IMG/VR virus record: IMGVR_UViG_3300044568_000638
Coordinates: 1 to 62,808 of that record
Source of the DNA: a virus
DNA length: 62,808 nt
Strand: one strand, 5' to 3'
Shown here: positions 26,402 to 62,808 of the stretch, in pieces
Position numbering within the stretch: position 1 is the first letter of the stretch
Layout of the letters: each line of letters starts with the position of its first letter
Position numbers and translations under genes: made by a program
Notes under the pieces: model-generated
Seen by the model: only the letters and a program-made list of their open reading frames with translations
Told to the model about the DNA's origin: nothing
The model's database searches: none

Positions 26402-26587
26402 TCAAAACGGGTCAATACTATTTTCTAAATATTTTTCATTGTCGCTAAAATAAATTCCGTAGATTTCTATTGCTTTTTTATATTTTTCTTCAGCGTCCGC
26501 AAACCTAGATTTGGTGCGGCTCCTCCATATAGCTGTTGCTGTATCGAGTAGAATGCAGCATTGGTCGAATGCGTTATCAGTGTTCAT
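26402..26587 (-). CDS. Small hypothetical protein coupled to the helicase gene
   Basis: 61 residues from ATG 26587, which lies 11 bases inside the helicase gene's end. It is helical, with Trp/Arg in 'ATAIWRSRTKSRFADAEEKYKKAIEIYG'. No family recognised. Confidence 0.5.
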   Translation of the reverse strand: MNTDNAFDQCCILLDTATAIWRSRTKSRFADAEEKYKKAIEIYGIYFSDNEKYLENSIDPF

Positions 26588-27869
26588 CAATTTGTTCAAA
26601 TCTGGAGATTGCGCCTAACATTTTTACTGGAACAAACACGTCCCTCTGTCCTCTTCTATTCTTATCGAATCTGATTCTGCTTGTCTCAATCTTCGCTGGA
26701 GCTTTGCGGAAATCCGTAACTTTCTTCTTGTCGTCTGGGTGAAGTATTATCAATAGGAAATCAGTATTCATGCCGATTGCACGGGACTCGCGCACTACGA
26801 AATCATCGTTGAGTTGTGATGCCGTAAGAACAACTGAATTGGTTTTTAATGCTGTCAGCTTTAGTCTGCGTGATAGCTCCGATACTGCCTGTTCTCTGTT
26901 ATCGGCCTTAGGCATCTCCACGATTTGAAGATAGTCTACAACGATAACATCAGCTTTACCAAGTGATGCGAGTCTTTGAGCCTCGGCAATGATCTCGCCA
27001 ACATCTGAAAGGTCATCTCGGAGCGTCAAATTCATTTTCATCAACTGCTCGATTGCGGAACTGATCTCTTTTGCATTCGCTACGTTGCGCCAGTCATTCA
27101 CCACATTAGCCTCACGCATTGGAATAATCTGCTTTCCGATTAGATTGCTAGCCATGCGTTGCAGGATGGCTTTAGAGGGCATTTCCAGCGAAAAGATGGC
27201 AACGTGCTTTCCCTGCATCAAAGCAGTCAACGCAGCTTGGTAAAGAAGGATTGACTTTCCTCCAGATGTTGCCGCACCAACAACCATCATCTCACCTCGT
27301 TGCATTCCGCCTCCAAGCAGTTTGTCGATTTTCGGTATTCCCAACGGAAACTTTTCGATTGGCTTCTTGTCATCGAGATCATCGAGGAAATCCATTAGAT
27401 GAGCTTTCACGTCTTTCGCTTGTGTCGCTTGTGGGATAGCATTGGCGATTGATTCAGCTATGCTGGACAAGTCAGCTCGCATTCCGATTATGTCTGCTTC
27501 GTTCTCCTCCCAGAGTCCGATAGCATCCCGATAACTTTTAGCTATGAGTAATTGCTGGCGATAATCCTCGGCAGTCTCAACACACATTGAACCAGCAGAC
27601 ATGAAGATGGTTTTAAGATCATCCATGACTCCTTCTTTGCCACCAGCGGCATTGAGTTTTCCGGTAGTTTCGAGGTCACTGATGGCCCCTAGTGCGTTAG
27701 TGCTGCCTGTTCTTTGATAGACTCTCTCAAGAGCCTTGAATATCAATTTGTGTTGCTCAAATGCAAATAGATCAGCAGACCATGAAAGGTGAGGTAGAAC
27801 GTCTGGATCAAGTGCGATTAACGATAGTGCCGCCTTTTCTGCCGTGATTGCGATAGGTAGGTTTTTCAT
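26577..27869 (-). CDS. dnaB-like: Replicative DnaB-type helicase
   Basis: 430 residues. The N-terminal domain (1-120) matches DnaB_N (EKAALSLIALDPDVLPHL). The RecA-type core has Walker A 'GAATSGGKS' (198-205) and Walker B 'VIVVDYLQI' (308-315), followed by 'ELSRRLKLTALKTNSVVLTASQLN' and an arginine-rich C-terminus. It would unwind the fork as a hexamer, presumably loaded by the initiator encoded two genes upstream. There is no primase domain, so host primase is probably used. The length is near that of bacterial DnaB. The ATG overlaps the previous stop (ATGA). Confidence 0.9.
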   Translation of the reverse strand: MKNLPIAITAEKAALSLIALDPDVLPHLSWSADLFAFEQHKLIFKALERVYQRTGSTNALGAISDLETTGKLNAAGGKEGVMDDLKTIFMSAGSMCVETAEDYRQQLLIAKSYRDAIGLWEENEADIIGMRADLSSIAESIANAIPQATQAKDVKAHLMDFLDDLDDKKPIEKFPLGIPKIDKLLGGGMQRGEMMVVGAATSGGKSILLYQAALTALMQGKHVAIFSLEMPSKAILQRMASNLIGKQIIPMREANVVNDWRNVANAKEISSAIEQLMKMNLTLRDDLSDVGEIIAEAQRLASLGKADVIVVDYLQIVEMPKADNREQAVSELSRRLKLTALKTNSVVLTASQLNDDFVVRESRAIGMNTDFLLIILHPDDKKKVTDFRKAPAKIETSRIRFDKNRRGQRDVFVPVKMLGAISRFEQIDEH

Positions 27870-28117
27870 TTAATCAAGAAAGCTGGAGTGTTTTCCCCGA
27901 CATATGCGCCTTGAACATTAAACTCAAAATACTCTTCAGCTTCCTCGCTTGTCATATCTTTCATTAAGATTTCTATGCACTTCTTTCTATCGTATACTGC
28001 AAATGCAGTTGTGAATTGATGAGCTACACCAATGAAGGCTGATTCAAATCCATCTGCCAAGATGATTGGTTCATCTTCTCCAACTAATTCAGTTATTTTT
28101 TTATTTATGTTTTTCAT
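27866..28117 (-). CDS. Small hypothetical protein between initiator and helicase
   Basis: 83 residues from ATG 28117, placed between the initiator and helicase genes where some phages encode a helicase loader. It is acidic with mixed secondary structure ('LADGFESAFIGVAHQFTTAFAVYDRKKCIEIL'). No loader motif (AAA+) is seen. The coupling by ATGA to the helicase suggests a linked role. Confidence 0.5.
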   Translation of the reverse strand: MKNINKKITELVGEDEPIILADGFESAFIGVAHQFTTAFAVYDRKKCIEILMKDMTSEEAEEYFEFNVQGAYVGENTPAFLIK

Positions 28118-28119
28118 AT

Positions 28120-28833
28120 TTAACAAGCTCGTTGTGGATACTCATCCTGTTGGTTTGATTGATTTGCAACCCAGCTAGCCTTAAAGCCCTGCCATCCACG
28201 GGAGACGCATTCTGTCAAAGCATCCTCCAATGTCCAGCCTGAAATCTTCACTTCTCTCTCAATGGCATCTAATGCTGTTTGGGTCAATGGTGCTTTCTTT
28301 GCTTTTCTTAGTTTTAGAAAATCATTCCAGACTTGATCTGGAACCTCGAAAGGCTGGATTACGCTTTCAGATTTCTTTTCTATCTTATCAATCTTCTCTT
28401 CTCTTATCTTATCTTCTCTATCGGTTAGCGTTGGGCTGCCCATGGGTTCGCTATGGGTTTCGATTGGGTTAGCCATGGGTAACCCATGGGTTACGGATGG
28501 GTTAGCTTTAGGTTTCCTTCCACCTTTCTTCCCATTCTCCCAATTGGCTATCAATGAAGAGTTATACTCATCCCATTGGTGAATCTCTACATTACCACCA
28601 TCTCGCCGTATAAAACCAGCGGCAATAAATGCCGACTCAAGTTTTTCAGCGTCTCCAGCATACCTACACAATGCTTTTAAGCCAGCAGGAGGAAGATTTG
28701 TGAACACGCTTGTCTTCCTGTTTTGGCAATGCCCCCATATCCTAATTAGATATAGAGGCGCAGATTCATCGTTCAAAAGATCCACTAGCATCCTTGTCTT
28801 CCAATGGTCAGGAAAGTCTGGTGATATAATCAT
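28120..28833 (-). CDS. Replication initiator (O-like) with internal iterons
   Basis: 237 residues. Residues 1-95 look like the winged-helix DNA-binding part of phage replisome organisers ('MLVDLLNDESAPLYLIRIWGHCQ', 'KALCRYAGDAEKLESAFIAAGFI'). A linker (about 97-155) is followed by a C-terminal helicase-binding-like domain ending 'GWQGFKASWVANQSNQ', a common ending for such proteins. The linker DNA holds about nine 11-bp repeats, so the initiator probably binds within its own gene, as lambda O does. It sits two genes upstream of the helicase. A protein of this kind loads DnaB at the origin. Confidence 0.7.
   Translation of the reverse strand: MIISPDFPDHWKTRMLVDLLNDESAPLYLIRIWGHCQNRKTSVFTNLPPAGLKALCRYAGDAEKLESAFIAAGFIRRDGGNVEIHQWDEYNSSLIANWENGKKGGRKPKANPSVTHGLPMANPIETHSEPMGSPTLTDREDKIREEKIDKIEKKSESVIQPFEVPDQVWNDFLKLRKAKKAPLTQTALDAIEREVKISGWTLEDALTECVSRGWQGFKASWVANQSNQQDEYPQRAC
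28419..28517. repeat. Iteron array, candidate replication origin
   Basis: Nine contiguous 11-bp units with consensus CATGGGTTAGC lie inside the initiator gene (units start at 28419, 28430, 28441, 28452, 28463, 28474, 28485, 28496 and 28507). GGG recurs exactly every 11 bases from 28433 to 28499. The period is not a multiple of 3, so it does not come from repeated amino acids, and it puts every unit on the same face of the helix. A 17-bp inverted repeat (CCATGGGT-A-ACCCATGG) spans 28473-28489. An AT-rich pyrimidine run (28370-28420) adjoins and could be the unwinding element. Confidence 0.8.
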
Positions 28834-29173: not shown

Positions 29174-29508
29174 TCTACTCCTTTCAAGCGATACTTGATG
29201 CGATCCATTGAATATCCAAAGGACAGCAATGCAACAACAATGTCATCAATACTTACTTCTGGGAACTCTGGAGCTTGGACATACTTATACAACCCATCCC
29301 ATCCTGTATTACAATCTTTAGTTGAGAAGAAATCCCACCAGACAATCCGTGCCGCAACGCAACGAACTTTGTAATCTGGAACTAATTCAATCTCATCAAT
29401 CCAAGTCCTTTGCGACTTTGACTTTAGATATTCAGTATCTATAAACTTGTGCCTATAGCGTTTATCTTCATCCTCTTCAATCTCTTCAATTTCAATTATA
29501 GTTTCCAT
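29170..29508 (-). CDS. Acidic hypothetical protein
   Basis: 112 residues from ATG 29508, which follows an AATAAAT leader. The N-terminus is very acidic, the C-terminus has 'VSIDDIVVALLSFGYSMDRIKYRL'. It overlaps the next gene by 4 bases. No family recognised. Confidence 0.5.
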   Translation of the reverse strand: METIIEIEEIEEDEDKRYRHKFIDTEYLKSKSQRTWIDEIELVPDYKVRCVAARIVWWDFFSTKDCNTGWDGLYKYVQAPEFPEVSIDDIVVALLSFGYSMDRIKYRLKGVE

Positions 29509-29513
29509 ATTAT

Positions 29514-29741
29514 TTATATATTCCTGCATTCCTTTATCATTTTGTTAATAGCTTCTCTTATGTGAGGCCATTCTATTGGATCAATTTGAATCTTACCTAC
29601 ATTATCATCATTGCACTGCGATACTTCAACGAACTCACCACCAGCTTCATCAGCGATTTGAACCTCAGTTACACCATCAGAAAATATTGGCTCATTTTCT
29701 GGCATCACGGCTATTTTCAATGTTCTTGTTTCGTAATTCAT
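29514..29741 (-). CDS. Small hypothetical protein
   Basis: 75 residues. It reads as a beta-rich small domain ('KIAVMPENEPIFSDGVTEVQIADEAGGEFVEV') with a helical end. It overlaps the nuclease gene's stop by 4 bases. No family recognised. Confidence 0.5.
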   Translation of the reverse strand: MNYETRTLKIAVMPENEPIFSDGVTEVQIADEAGGEFVEVSQCNDDNVGKIQIDPIEWPHIREAINKMIKECRNI

Positions 29742-30757
29742 TTGATTTTCTTTTCTTTCTTAGGTTTATCTTCTACCATCCGAATAATGTCTTTGGATCG
29801 ATATGTCTCAAAGTCAAACGGGATACCTTTCTTTTCCGTAAACTCTCTCAAGTCGTTAGCTTTAATCTTTCCGCCGAACAAGTCGATTATCTCAAACTTG
29901 CTCAACGTCTCGGTAGCTGAATAAAGAGCTTCTGCTCCACAATACTCGATCCCCTTGGAGTTTTGTAACTTGTATCCCACAACTGGCTCTTCGTTAGTCA
30001 ATCTTTCGCGTATCAAATCCTTTGCCCAATCCACTAACTCATTAAATATATTTGCCTTTTTCACAAACACGCTTATGCGTTCTGGATCTGCCGCCAAATA
30101 CTCCTTTAATTGCGCTACGTTGGCCTTTATATCGCTGTCCACTACAACCAATGTATCGTTGACAGCTGTTGCAATTCCATTGCACGTTGAATAATTTGAA
30201 CACCATTTACAATACTCGCATGGCGTTGGCTTTTTGTCTGGATCATTAGCCTTGGCTAGAATCTCCTCTACGCCAGACTTGGCTTCCTCGTAGTTGAAGG
30301 AATGCTTAACGATTCGTTGCTGGTCGCAGAATATCAGATAGCACGTCCATTCATCACAGAACTCTCTCGCCATGTTGCCATAGGCGTATGCCATCATCTG
30401 ATTTTCGTAATCCCTGACTTGACCTGACTTCAGGTCGCAGGAAATGCACAATGATGGAATGCGACAATCTTCCGTTCCGATATGCTCAATTCCAGCAGTC
30501 TTTACCTTGAGCTTTGACTCGTCAGAAATGATCTCCTTGTCTCCAGCTATTGCTTGGACTTGATTAATAGCCCAAATGACAGCTTTCTTGTCGTCATCCG
30601 TATCCAGCAATTCAATCTTGCTTGAATCTCCAGCAAGAGCGAAGCGGAATGCCTCATCCATTTTGGTTCCCCTAGCTGCCGCTGGGGATGACTCCCCAGA
30701 AGCAGATTCGTAACAGGCACATTGCGCTAACTTAGGTAGTGAGGAATGGCGGATCAT
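29738..30757 (-). CDS. PD-(D/E)XK nuclease (Cas4/RecB-like) with cysteine cluster
   Basis: 339 residues, starting by ATGA overlap with the ERF gene; an upstream start would run through that gene. Motifs include 'SLPKLAQCACYES' and 'RGTKMDEAFRFAL' near the N-terminus, 'SLCISCDLKSGQVRDYENQMMAYAYG' (D...K with Q of motif III) and four cysteines in 'CEYCKWCSNYSTC', which match Cas4/RecB-type exonucleases with an iron-sulfur site. With the ERF protein it makes a plausible recombination pair: exonuclease plus annealing protein. Confidence 0.8.
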   Translation of the reverse strand: MIRHSSLPKLAQCACYESASGESSPAAARGTKMDEAFRFALAGDSSKIELLDTDDDKKAVIWAINQVQAIAGDKEIISDESKLKVKTAGIEHIGTEDCRIPSLCISCDLKSGQVRDYENQMMAYAYGNMAREFCDEWTCYLIFCDQQRIVKHSFNYEEAKSGVEEILAKANDPDKKPTPCEYCKWCSNYSTCNGIATAVNDTLVVVDSDIKANVAQLKEYLAADPERISVFVKKANIFNELVDWAKDLIRERLTNEEPVVGYKLQNSKGIEYCGAEALYSATETLSKFEIIDLFGGKIKANDLREFTEKKGIPFDFETYRSKDIIRMVEDKPKKEKKIK

Positions 30758-31416
30758 AGTGTTGTCAATACCGCTTGCACGAATGCGGATGCGCCACCTT
30801 TGGAAAGAATCCTTGAGCGATATGGGCCTTCTTTTAACTCGCGCCATGTTTGGCCTTCTTCCAATGCGCCCTTCTTGATTAACCACAATGTAGCTTCCTT
30901 GTCTATTTCCTTGATGGTAGCTTCGACCTCAGAATACCAATTATCTCCCCAAGGAGCATCTGGCATATCATCCATGTTGGCAGGAACGATTGGTTCCTTC
31001 TTTATGACTTTTGCTACAGGTTTACTAACTTGTGCAACGCTTGGGCGTGATGCCGCATTGCCATCGTCGTCCTCTGGAGCGATACCACAGGCCGCCATGA
31101 GCGAGTACCGCCTTGCATAGGTCAATGCTGACCCATAGCCTTGTGCGTCTTGCTTGGTAGCAGGAACGTGTAGTTTACCAGCAGAGAGTGATTCGCCACT
31201 CTCATGCAGGAAAAGGGTTTCCACGCAAACTCCCGACTCGCTGTCATGTGTTTGTTGGATTAATGCTATTCCGTTATCATTAAGACCTGTGATAACCGAT
31301 TCGACGCAAGCAGACAAATCTGCGTATCGCGAACGGAAGTGAGGGTTTGTGGACGTTTTCAATGCTGGCCCGAATGCCTTCTGAGCCTTTACTAGTGCTG
31401 ATGCTATGTTTTTCAT
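30754..31416 (-). CDS. erf: ERF-family single-strand annealing protein
   Basis: 220 residues. 'MKNIASALVKAQKAFGPALKTSTNPHFRSRYADLSACVESVITGLNDNGIALIQ' and 'KQDAQGYGSALTYARRYSLMAACGIAPEDDDGN' are signature ERF-superfamily blocks. ERF proteins anneal homologous single strands and promote circularisation and concatemer formation, acting here with the adjacent nuclease. The C-terminal 60 residues are more variable. The leader is again AATAAATAAATAC. Confidence 0.9.
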   Translation of the reverse strand: MKNIASALVKAQKAFGPALKTSTNPHFRSRYADLSACVESVITGLNDNGIALIQQTHDSESGVCVETLFLHESGESLSAGKLHVPATKQDAQGYGSALTYARRYSLMAACGIAPEDDDGNAASRPSVAQVSKPVAKVIKKEPIVPANMDDMPDAPWGDNWYSEVEATIKEIDKEATLWLIKKGALEEGQTWRELKEGPYRSRILSKGGASAFVQAVLTTL

Positions 31417-36325: not shown

Positions 36326-37441
36326 ATGAGATTCCACATTCTAGGATTACCGCACACTGTAACAAGTAAAGATTTTAACGCCTGTGCCTACACTGCAAAG
36401 GTTTTAAAATTCGGAAAGATGATGACAAGCCGAGGACACGAAGTCATCCACTATGGGCATGAAGATTCCGACCTCCAATGCACAGAGCACGTTAGCGTTT
36501 TAACAAACGATGACTTCTCTAAAAGCTACGGCTCGCACGATTGGCGCAAGACATTCTTTAAATTTGATATCGGCGATCACGCATATCAGACGTTTTACGC
36601 AAACGCCATTCGTGAAGTAGGAAGACGCAAACAGAAAAACGATTTCATCCTGCCATTTTGGGGAAGCGGAGTACGCCCGATCTGTGATGCTCATCAAGAT
36701 TTGATTTGCGTGGAACCCGGGATTGGATACGCAGGAGGACACTGGGCGCGATGGAAGGTGTGGGAAAGCTACGCCATTTATCACGCATATTGCGGGATGC
36801 AAGCTGTCGGAAATTGCCAGCAGGATAACTATAGCGTGGTGATCCCAAACTATTTCGATCCCGCTGATTTCACCTTCCAATCCGAAAAGGAAAACTATTT
36901 CCTCTATCTGGGCAGGGTTTACAGCGGGAAAGGCGTTGACATTGCAATCCAAGCCACGGAACGAGCGGGAGTGAAGCTAGTGATTGCAGGACAGAAGGAA
37001 GAAGGCTACAAGCTACCGCCCCACGTTGAATATGTAGGATACGCCGACACGGAAACCCGCAGAAAGCTAATGGCAAACGCCAAAGCATCTTTCCTGCCCT
37101 CGCAATATGTGGAGCCGTTCGGTGGTGTGCAGATTGAAAATTTGCTTTCAGGAACTCCGACAATCACGACAGACTGGGGGAGCTTCGCAGAAAACAACCT
37201 CCACGGCATTACAGGCTACCGATGCCGAACGATGGGAGACTTCGTTGATGCAATCCACGCTGTCGACCGCATACGCCCCGAGAATTGCCAAGCTTTCGGA
37301 TTGAATTTTACGCTCGAACGTGTCGCGCCGATGTACGAGAAATATTTCTCCGATGTTCTGGACGTTTACAACGGGGCAGGATGGTATGCAGACGGAAATG
37401 GCATTGACGCAATGACACGTTACTTCCCAGCGATTGACTAG
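36326..37441 (+). CDS. GT4-family glycosyltransferase
   Basis: 371 residues. The C-terminal Rossmann half has 'YFLYLGRVYSGKGVDIAIQATERAGVKLVIAG' and the acceptor/donor block 'VEPFGGVQIENLLSGTPTITTDWG', the E-x7-E type motif of GT4 enzymes that use nucleotide sugars. Together with two glycosyltransferases near the scaffold, it suggests sugar transfer to a virion protein, DNA or the host surface. The substrate is unknown. Most of the N-terminal half is acceptor-binding and not recognised. Confidence 0.85.
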   Translation: MRFHILGLPHTVTSKDFNACAYTAKVLKFGKMMTSRGHEVIHYGHEDSDLQCTEHVSVLTNDDFSKSYGSHDWRKTFFKFDIGDHAYQTFYANAIREVGRRKQKNDFILPFWGSGVRPICDAHQDLICVEPGIGYAGGHWARWKVWESYAIYHAYCGMQAVGNCQQDNYSVVIPNYFDPADFTFQSEKENYFLYLGRVYSGKGVDIAIQATERAGVKLVIAGQKEEGYKLPPHVEYVGYADTETRRKLMANAKASFLPSQYVEPFGGVQIENLLSGTPTITTDWGSFAENNLHGITGYRCRTMGDFVDAIHAVDRIRPENCQAFGLNFTLERVAPMYEKYFSDVLDVYNGAGWYADGNGIDAMTRYFPAID

Positions 37442-38992: not shown

Positions 38993-39244
38993 ATGAAAAA
39001 GGAAGACTTGTGGAATCAATATGCGAAAAAGAATCCTAGCTTTAATGGCAATGGAAATGTTACGTTGTCAGCTAGAGGATTGAGGAAGATGTTTGACCAG
39101 ACGTGGAAGATTGCATTTGAGTCTGGATTCAACCAAGAGTTTGAAGATGACGAAGAGGATCACGATTACCCACAAGAGATAAAAGGGAACCCATGCGCGG
39201 AGAACATTTTCAAAACAATTTTCGGAGGCTTCGGAGGCCGATGA
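38993..39244 (+). CDS. Small acidic hypothetical protein
   Basis: 83 residues; acidic middle (EFEDDEEDHDYP) and a C-terminus 'NIFKTIFGGFGGR' close to a short pattern ('FKxIFGG') in other phages. No family recognised. The stop overlaps the next ATG. Confidence 0.5.
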   Translation: MKKEDLWNQYAKKNPSFNGNGNVTLSARGLRKMFDQTWKIAFESGFNQEFEDDEEDHDYPQEIKGNPCAENIFKTIFGGFGGR

Positions 39245-62310: not shown

Positions 62311-62808
62311 ATGTCTTGCAATTATCTATTTAACGATTACGGAAACTACAATTATTCATATGATAATAGCGGAATTAAATCTATAGGTGCAACTGGAGCA
62401 ACTGGGCCTATTGGTGCTACAGGTTTAGGGGTAAATGGAGCAACTGGAGAAATAGGAGCTACTGGGCCAAGTGGAGGGCCAACAGGTGCTACTGGAGTTT
62501 CTGGTGGTGTTGGATCAACTGGAGTCTCTGGTGGTGTTGGATCAACTGGAGCTACTGGAGTTGGCGCGACAGGTTCTCAAGGTGCTACTGGAGTCTCTGG
62601 TGGTGTTGGATCAACTGGAGCTACTGGAGTTGGTCTAACTGGAGCTACTGGAGTTGGCGCGACAGGTTCTAAAGGTGCTACGGGTATTCAAGGATCAACA
62701 GGCATTCAAGGTTCTACAGGCATTGGCTCAACTGGAATACAAGGAGCAACAGGACTTACAGGATCTGTTGGATCACAAGGAAGTACTGGTTCTACAGGCA
62801 TTGGCTCA
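62311..62808 (+). CDS. Collagen-like fibre, 5' part (joins the gene ending at 2498)
   Basis: The gene starts at ATG 62311 ([19 protein letters not shown]) and runs open off the right end through GATG collagen triplets. The last 164 bases match bases 1-164, and the two ends share frame, so this is the start of the fibre whose 3' end is at 2498. TTGACT lies at 62270 in front of it. Confidence 0.85.
62645..62808. repeat. Terminal redundancy with bases 1-164
   Basis: Bases 62645-62808 are the same as 1-164 except position 62671 (A) versus 27 (C). This is what is expected when a circular or circularly permuted genome is cut at an arbitrary point, with the caveat that the region is repetitive. Confidence 0.8.

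Follow-up and report, generated by a model that had tools for sequence, protein, structure and literature searches.

Organization of the initiator locus

The window, by which we mean the whole 62,808-nucleotide stretch analysed here, is an uncultured phage record from IMG/VR and contains a replication initiator gene of 237 codons on the minus strand (28833–28120). This gene lies between an Erf/exonuclease recombination block (30754–31416 and 29738–30886) on one side and the gene for a DnaB-like replicative helicase (26577–27869, minus strand) on the other, the latter identified by matches to Pfam DnaB_C (E 6e-32) and DnaB (E 4e-8) and to PHROG 19 (E 1.5e-59). Inspection of the P-type loader position downstream of the initiator revealed a small 86-aa ORF lacking a Pfam match (27866–28126, minus strand), followed by the helicase gene. 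The initiator matches two PHROGs, namely PHROG 678 (‘replication initiation O-like’, E 9e-22) over residues 109–231 in its C-terminal half and PHROG 9474 (‘replication initiation protein’, E 7e-12) in its N-terminal half; no match to the 237-residue protein was found among Pfam or NCBIfam models. Together with the helicase matches, these assignments agree with the original prediction of a replisome-organiser-type gene with a helicase gene downstream.

In the predicted structure, the N-terminal domain (residues 1–106; 28516–28833, minus strand) has the secondary-structure order H-H-H-H-E-E-H with pLDDT mostly above 90, and ends in the motif NG-x2-GGR(P). Its invariant residues were identified over 23 relatives. 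The domain is predicted to be a winged helix; no solved relative was found by sequence, and fold matches were weak and mixed (best E about 0.05). As none of the solved DNA-binding structures matched significantly, the term ‘winged helix’ rests on prediction. Residues about 108–155 form a linker of low confidence, which is presumably disordered. The linker is followed by a predicted four-helix C-terminal domain (about residues 160–232; 28138–28356, minus strand) of a kind common to O-like initiators with other N-terminal domains.

Elsewhere in the window, a glycosyltransferase gene (36326–37441; PHROG 3408, E 4e-191) adjoins the small terminase gene. Collagen-like repeat genes run off the contig at both ends (1–2498 and 62311–62808), and its opening 30 bases are found again at 62552. 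The likely reason is an assembly break within a single repetitive tail-fibre gene; the genome itself may be close to complete.

An 11-bp array inside the initiator gene

The DNA coding for the linker between the two domains contains a tandem array (28419–28517) that accommodates nine contiguous 11-mers, gapless and with the core AACCCA on the coding (minus) strand. Read on that strand from 28517 downward, units 1–5 are GGAAACCTAAA, GCTAACCCATC, CGTAACCCATG, GGTTACCCATG and GCTAACCCAAT, and units 6–9, down to 28419, are CGAAACCCATA, GCGAACCCATG, GGCAGCCCAAC and GCTAACCGATA. The originally predicted consensus, CATGGGTTAGC, is the opposite strand of these units. Direct reading confirmed GGG on that opposite strand at 28433, 28444, 28455, 28466, 28477, 28488 and 28499, exactly every 11 bases as claimed. 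The nine gapless units of the prediction were likewise recovered, with a gradation among them: the six central units (28441–28506) are the strongest and carry ACCC in register, and the three outer ones are degenerate, reading AACCT at 28507–28517, AGCCC at 28430–28440 and AACCG at 28419–28429. TRF detected the 11-bp period over 28439–28504 (6 copies, 69% matches).

Several analyses place the array above chance. Of all lag-11 stretches in the whole 62.8-kb window it ranks first, with 64% identity over 88 bp. At four places in the window, all at the array, three ACCC stand in 11-bp register; 100 dinucleotide-preserving shuffles gave no such case. We further permuted synonymous codons within the initiator gene, holding protein and codon usage fixed (n = 5000). 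The lag-11 identity of the gene, 0.667, was reached in 0/5000 permutations (mean 0.473), and a chain of six ACCC arose in 1/5000. The array is therefore above chance and constrained at the DNA level.

Within the array, a 17-bp inverted repeat (CCATGGGTAACCCATGG, 28473–28489) is present as predicted, perfect except for its centre base and surrounded by an 18-nt pair of 83% identity. This palindrome is absent from the non-coding arrays of relatives that we examined, and it is no general feature of such arrays. The predicted bordering pyrimidine run was also found; its complement on the minus strand, 28363–28422, is 82% purine and ties as the most purine-rich 60-mer of that strand. By calculated stability, a 50-bp segment at 28365 ranks in the lowest 1.6% of the region from 26 to 31.5 kb, making the tract a candidate DNA unwinding element; stretches calculated to be still less stable lie nearby at 28070–28080 and 29470–29495, and the sequence following the array is only 52–57% AT in some groups of relatives. 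GC skew was considered as an origin marker and discarded: its cumulative turns (about 25 kb and 31–35 kb) coincide with changes in transcription direction, and the array sits within a leftward-transcribed block. Because the turns follow transcription, the skew is uninformative on the origin.

Arrays in the coding DNA of relatives

Viral contigs were searched with the whole protein and then with an alignment of the N-terminal domain, yielding 28 and then 80 loci. In proteins about 50–60% identical to the window initiator in the N-terminal domain, AACCC-N6 units occur at the same place, directly after NG-x2-GGRPKK, and the 11-bp period is kept there in proteins only 40–60% identical. AACCGATA closes most of these arrays, and a GA-rich tract comes next. 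The spacing between successive AACC sites, taken over 59 distinct linkers, was 11 bp in 206 cases, 12 bp in 44 and 22 bp in 33. One subgroup breaks the strict 11-bp steps with distances of 11, 12 and 21 bp, which are near, not exactly, helical. In the synonymous-permutation test, most relatives resemble the window gene.

Exchange of domains among these proteins allowed the two halves of the initiator to be considered separately. When the window-type C-terminal domain is joined to a matching N-terminal domain, 8/9 distinct proteins have at least four sites in register and the ninth has three; when it is joined to other N-terminal domains, the array is found in 0/36 distinct proteins. The converse was also seen: where the N-terminal domain is of the window type and the C-terminal part differs, AACCC sites persist in the linker (L019, L023–L030). 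The presence of the array thus follows the N-terminal domain, not the C-terminal domain.

Arrays in the non-coding DNA of relatives

Phages whose initiator stops just before the array were first revealed by scanning for four AACCC in 11-bp register. Such relatives, here called NTD-only, were then collected with the short protein alone, blind to the array (L204, L438–L517). Their 70 distinct genes encode proteins of 117–124 aa that end just after NG-x2-GG(R/K)PK. In all 70, the AACC sites are non-coding and begin at the stop codon or no more than 34 bp from it, usually at 2–14 bp, and 68/70 have at least four AACC at exact 11-bp steps. The set contains 240 exact 11-bp steps from AACC to AACC, and the unit consensus is WAACCCAA followed by three free positions. 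Where it could be read, the next gene starts 124–207 bp downstream and is DnaB-helicase-like; Pfam DnaB was confirmed in 5/5 of the downstream genes tested.

A row of sites that persists where nothing is encoded is a DNA element. Taken with the failure of synonymous permutation to reproduce the lag-11 identity, this identifies the array as an element acting at the DNA level, and the claim that its period does not stem from repeated amino acids is upheld by both results (0/5000 permutations; non-coding arrays in 70 relatives). Moreover, the array and the N-terminal domain have remained together in relatives whose C-terminal domain is missing, which points to the N-terminal domain as the part that reads the array. 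Persistence of the 11-bp phasing in relatives that keep the protein had been set beforehand as the test on which the original prediction could fail. Chains of at least three AACC at 11 bp after the N-terminal domain were kept in 39/58 window-type coding relatives and in 66/68 NTD-only genes; many coding relatives outside the 39/58 have AACC sites at 11, 12, 21 or 22 bp. The prediction was not refuted by this test.

Comparison with known origins

The nearest precedent that we found is Lactococcus phage Tuc2009, which is closer to the window array than phage lambda. As in the window, the Tuc2009 rep gene (orf16) carries repeats after its N-terminal part, with CAACCA at nucleotides 342, 353, 364 and 375, exactly 11 bp apart, and then a purine-rich sequence beginning GGATAGGATAGGAGAGG; the gene is annotated ‘contains origin of replication’. 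PMC8965321 describes the Tuc2009 and TP901-1 replisome organisers as binding direct repeats in their own genes that serve as ori. The two arrays differ in their cores (CAACCA in Tuc2009, AACCCA in the window) and in the smaller number of Tuc2009 units in strict register, namely four. The N-terminal domains of the two initiators showed no detectable relation (hhalign probability 0.9%), in a comparison that used Tuc2009 as a single sequence and leaves room for a distant relation. In the TP901-1 rep gene (orf13), the repeats that we found have a different core and are 15 bp apart, not 11 bp as in the window. One turn per site had been regarded as unusual. This view is not sustained, because Tuc2009 has the same spacing with nearly the same core, as do many phage relatives.

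The description of the origin as ‘lambda-like’ holds for the layout and fails for the kinship of the DNA-binding domain and the type of iteron. In gene O of lambda and the Stx phages, as in the window, iterons lie between the DNA-binding and C-terminal parts and next to an A+T-rich tract; an easily melted tract adjoining the iterons is common to both, that of the window by calculated stability. The C-terminal domain of the window protein matches the C-terminal part of PHROG 678, and the N-terminal part of PHROG 678 matches lambda O. However, lambda O matches Pfam PF04492 (E 6e-36), whereas the window protein has no Pfam match, and profile comparison of its N-terminal domain with PF04492 (Phage_rep_O) gave a probability of 0.1%. 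The iterons of lambda are inverted repeats of 19 bp, to which O binds as a dimer (PMC5043065; PMC7466680). They are located at 39034–39118 and spaced 20–24 bp, about two turns apart, in contrast to the 11-bp direct repeats of the window. In addition, the P gene adjoins O in lambda, whereas a DnaB-like helicase gene lies downstream in the window.

In iteron plasmids, each unit spans about two helical turns and is situated outside the initiator gene, and the initiators belong to protein families other than that of the window. The iterons of P1, RK2, R6K and pSC101 are helix-phased direct initiator repeats beside an A+T-rich opening region (PMC5043065). The plan of an origin inside the initiator gene is thus already known from lambda and Tuc2009. 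In the literature searched, which does not extend to most subscription journals, we found no paper that treats the 11-bp AACC array as general or that describes its split, non-coding version; the AACC version is more widespread than that literature describes.

Two further phages drew attention during these comparisons. An O-like gene of Aggregatibacter phage S1249 (L114) carries a 21-bp repeat, GGTATGCCAGCAGATAGCACA, at about 2430–2520, with two turns per unit and between the N- and C-terminal parts; it is possibly the corresponding origin of that phage. ‘Limnohabitans phage DC33’ (L113) is filed under Inoviridae, yet its record is 39 kb long with an O-like initiator gene, and its taxonomy therefore looks wrong.

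Proposed mechanism and alternative explanations

Based on these findings, we propose that the array very probably consists of origin iterons within their own initiator gene, bound by the predicted winged-helix N-terminal domain and placed beside an easily melted tract. The position of the iterons near the helicase gene and their linkage to the N-terminal domain are direct observations, and from these we infer how the origin would work. One N-terminal domain would bind the AACCCA core of each unit. Because the cores are 11 bp apart, the bound copies would all stand on the same side of the helix, making up an unbroken row. This row would then strain the neighbouring purine-rich, low-stability tract (28363–28422), which may open in response. 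The phage DnaB-like helicase encoded downstream could be loaded at the opened tract, perhaps with help from the C-terminal domain in the version present in the window. The gene can host iterons without harm to the protein, since the stretch between the domains is presumably an unstructured linker.

The main alternative is that the array is an operator rather than an origin, bound by the initiator or another regulator that controls the initiator gene and the helicase gene downstream. Operators, too, can contain phased site arrays, and such arrays fit this role; in the NTD-only relatives, moreover, the array stands between the initiator and dnaB, where an operator could be expected. Against this, the array of the window and of the coding relatives lies inside the initiator gene, in the window 550 bp from the start of the helicase gene, and the comparable repeats of Tuc2009 fall in a region reported as ori. 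We consider an operator role in place of an origin unlikely, though the two roles are not mutually exclusive.

The remaining explanations are far less probable. Selection on the flexible linker could leave the DNA period as a by-product, and the linker does contain an 11-residue repeat, NPxxTHxxPMx, whose N, P and T residues raise the frequency of AACCC. Yet synonymous permutations do not reproduce the period, an 11-bp step shifts successive units into different reading frames, and the 70 relatives with a non-coding array refute a protein-level repeat as the main cause, so that we give this reading very little weight. An RNA element, with the repeats acting as mRNA hairpins or as the binding site of a translation regulator, would accord with the folding of the window array through its palindromes (z −1.7) and the strong folding of one relative (L065, z −4.7). 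But the other four of the six stretches folded, non-coding ones included, were not clearly stabler than shuffles (z −1.0 to +0.7), the non-coding unit consensus does not include the palindrome, and it is not evident what a period of exactly one turn would mean in RNA; this possibility is just as slight. Least probable of all is functionless tandem duplication by slippage. Although slippage can generate tandem arrays, and 22-bp and 33-bp similarities are present, the AACCCA core has been kept in the units while spacer positions diverged, and the period holds its position even where the N-terminal domains are only 40–60% identical, against a background of 0/1829 in somewhat selected control ORF segments. 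This pattern of conservation effectively refutes slippage.

Breadth of the pattern among tailed phages

Runs of at least three AACC at 11 bp also occur in initiators with other N-terminal domains, in 25/74 DUF1376-type and 33/67 DUF6291-type genes; these samples are the 80 top matches to alignments whose seeds were array-bearing members, and the fractions are not estimates for whole families. The label DUF6291 is based on one BFVD name among the fold matches and on reading of the sequence, not on a Pfam assignment. The same pattern was found in 0/1829 control ORF segments, a somewhat selected set from which ORFs with GGRP-like or NPxxT-like motifs had been excluded. Profile comparison matched the window-type N-terminal domain to DUF1376 over no more than 18 columns, around NG-x2-GGRP, and to DUF6291 over only 9 columns. 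Common descent of the three N-terminal domains is not claimed, as the likeness of their profiles extends little beyond the NG-x2-GGRP end.

With the origin reading of the window array in mind, we tentatively suggest, at somewhat less than even confidence, that a common and as yet unnamed type of tailed-phage origin may exist. It would have AACC-core iterons one turn apart and an initiator row on one face of the helix, and would be shared by window-type, DUF1376, DUF6291 and Tuc2009-like initiators, whose N-terminal domains are not detectably related. It would usually be hidden in linker-coding DNA, with one branch that has no C-terminal domain and a non-coding array. The AACC 11-bp signature could mark where replication probably starts in many uncultured phages. 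Iteron binding is suggested as the function of an N-terminal domain that Pfam does not contain and, by extension, of the DUF1376 and DUF6291 N-terminal domains. The relatives with a non-coding array separate the function of the DNA from that of the protein without experiment. They also offer a clean system for studying the helical phasing of initiator sites, because the spacing there can be changed while the protein is left untouched.

A scan of viral contigs with the four-AACCC pattern placed 60/120 matches in the linker of GGRP-type proteins, and several of the other matches were NTD-only phages. In bacterial-genome contigs, the same pattern matched mostly tandem repeats outside initiator-like genes, and the pattern alone is therefore not specific there. 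Two bacterial assemblies, JAUZOM01 and JAQTUE01 (contigs among L317–L391), have the pattern of four AACCC units on many of their contigs, away from initiator-like genes and in the manner of a dispersed repeat. Finally, AACCCCAARNN units at 11 bp lie outside any long ORF in two other phage contigs, L250 (3087–3168) and L246 (about 2053–2100); these arrays are possibly another origin of the same kind.
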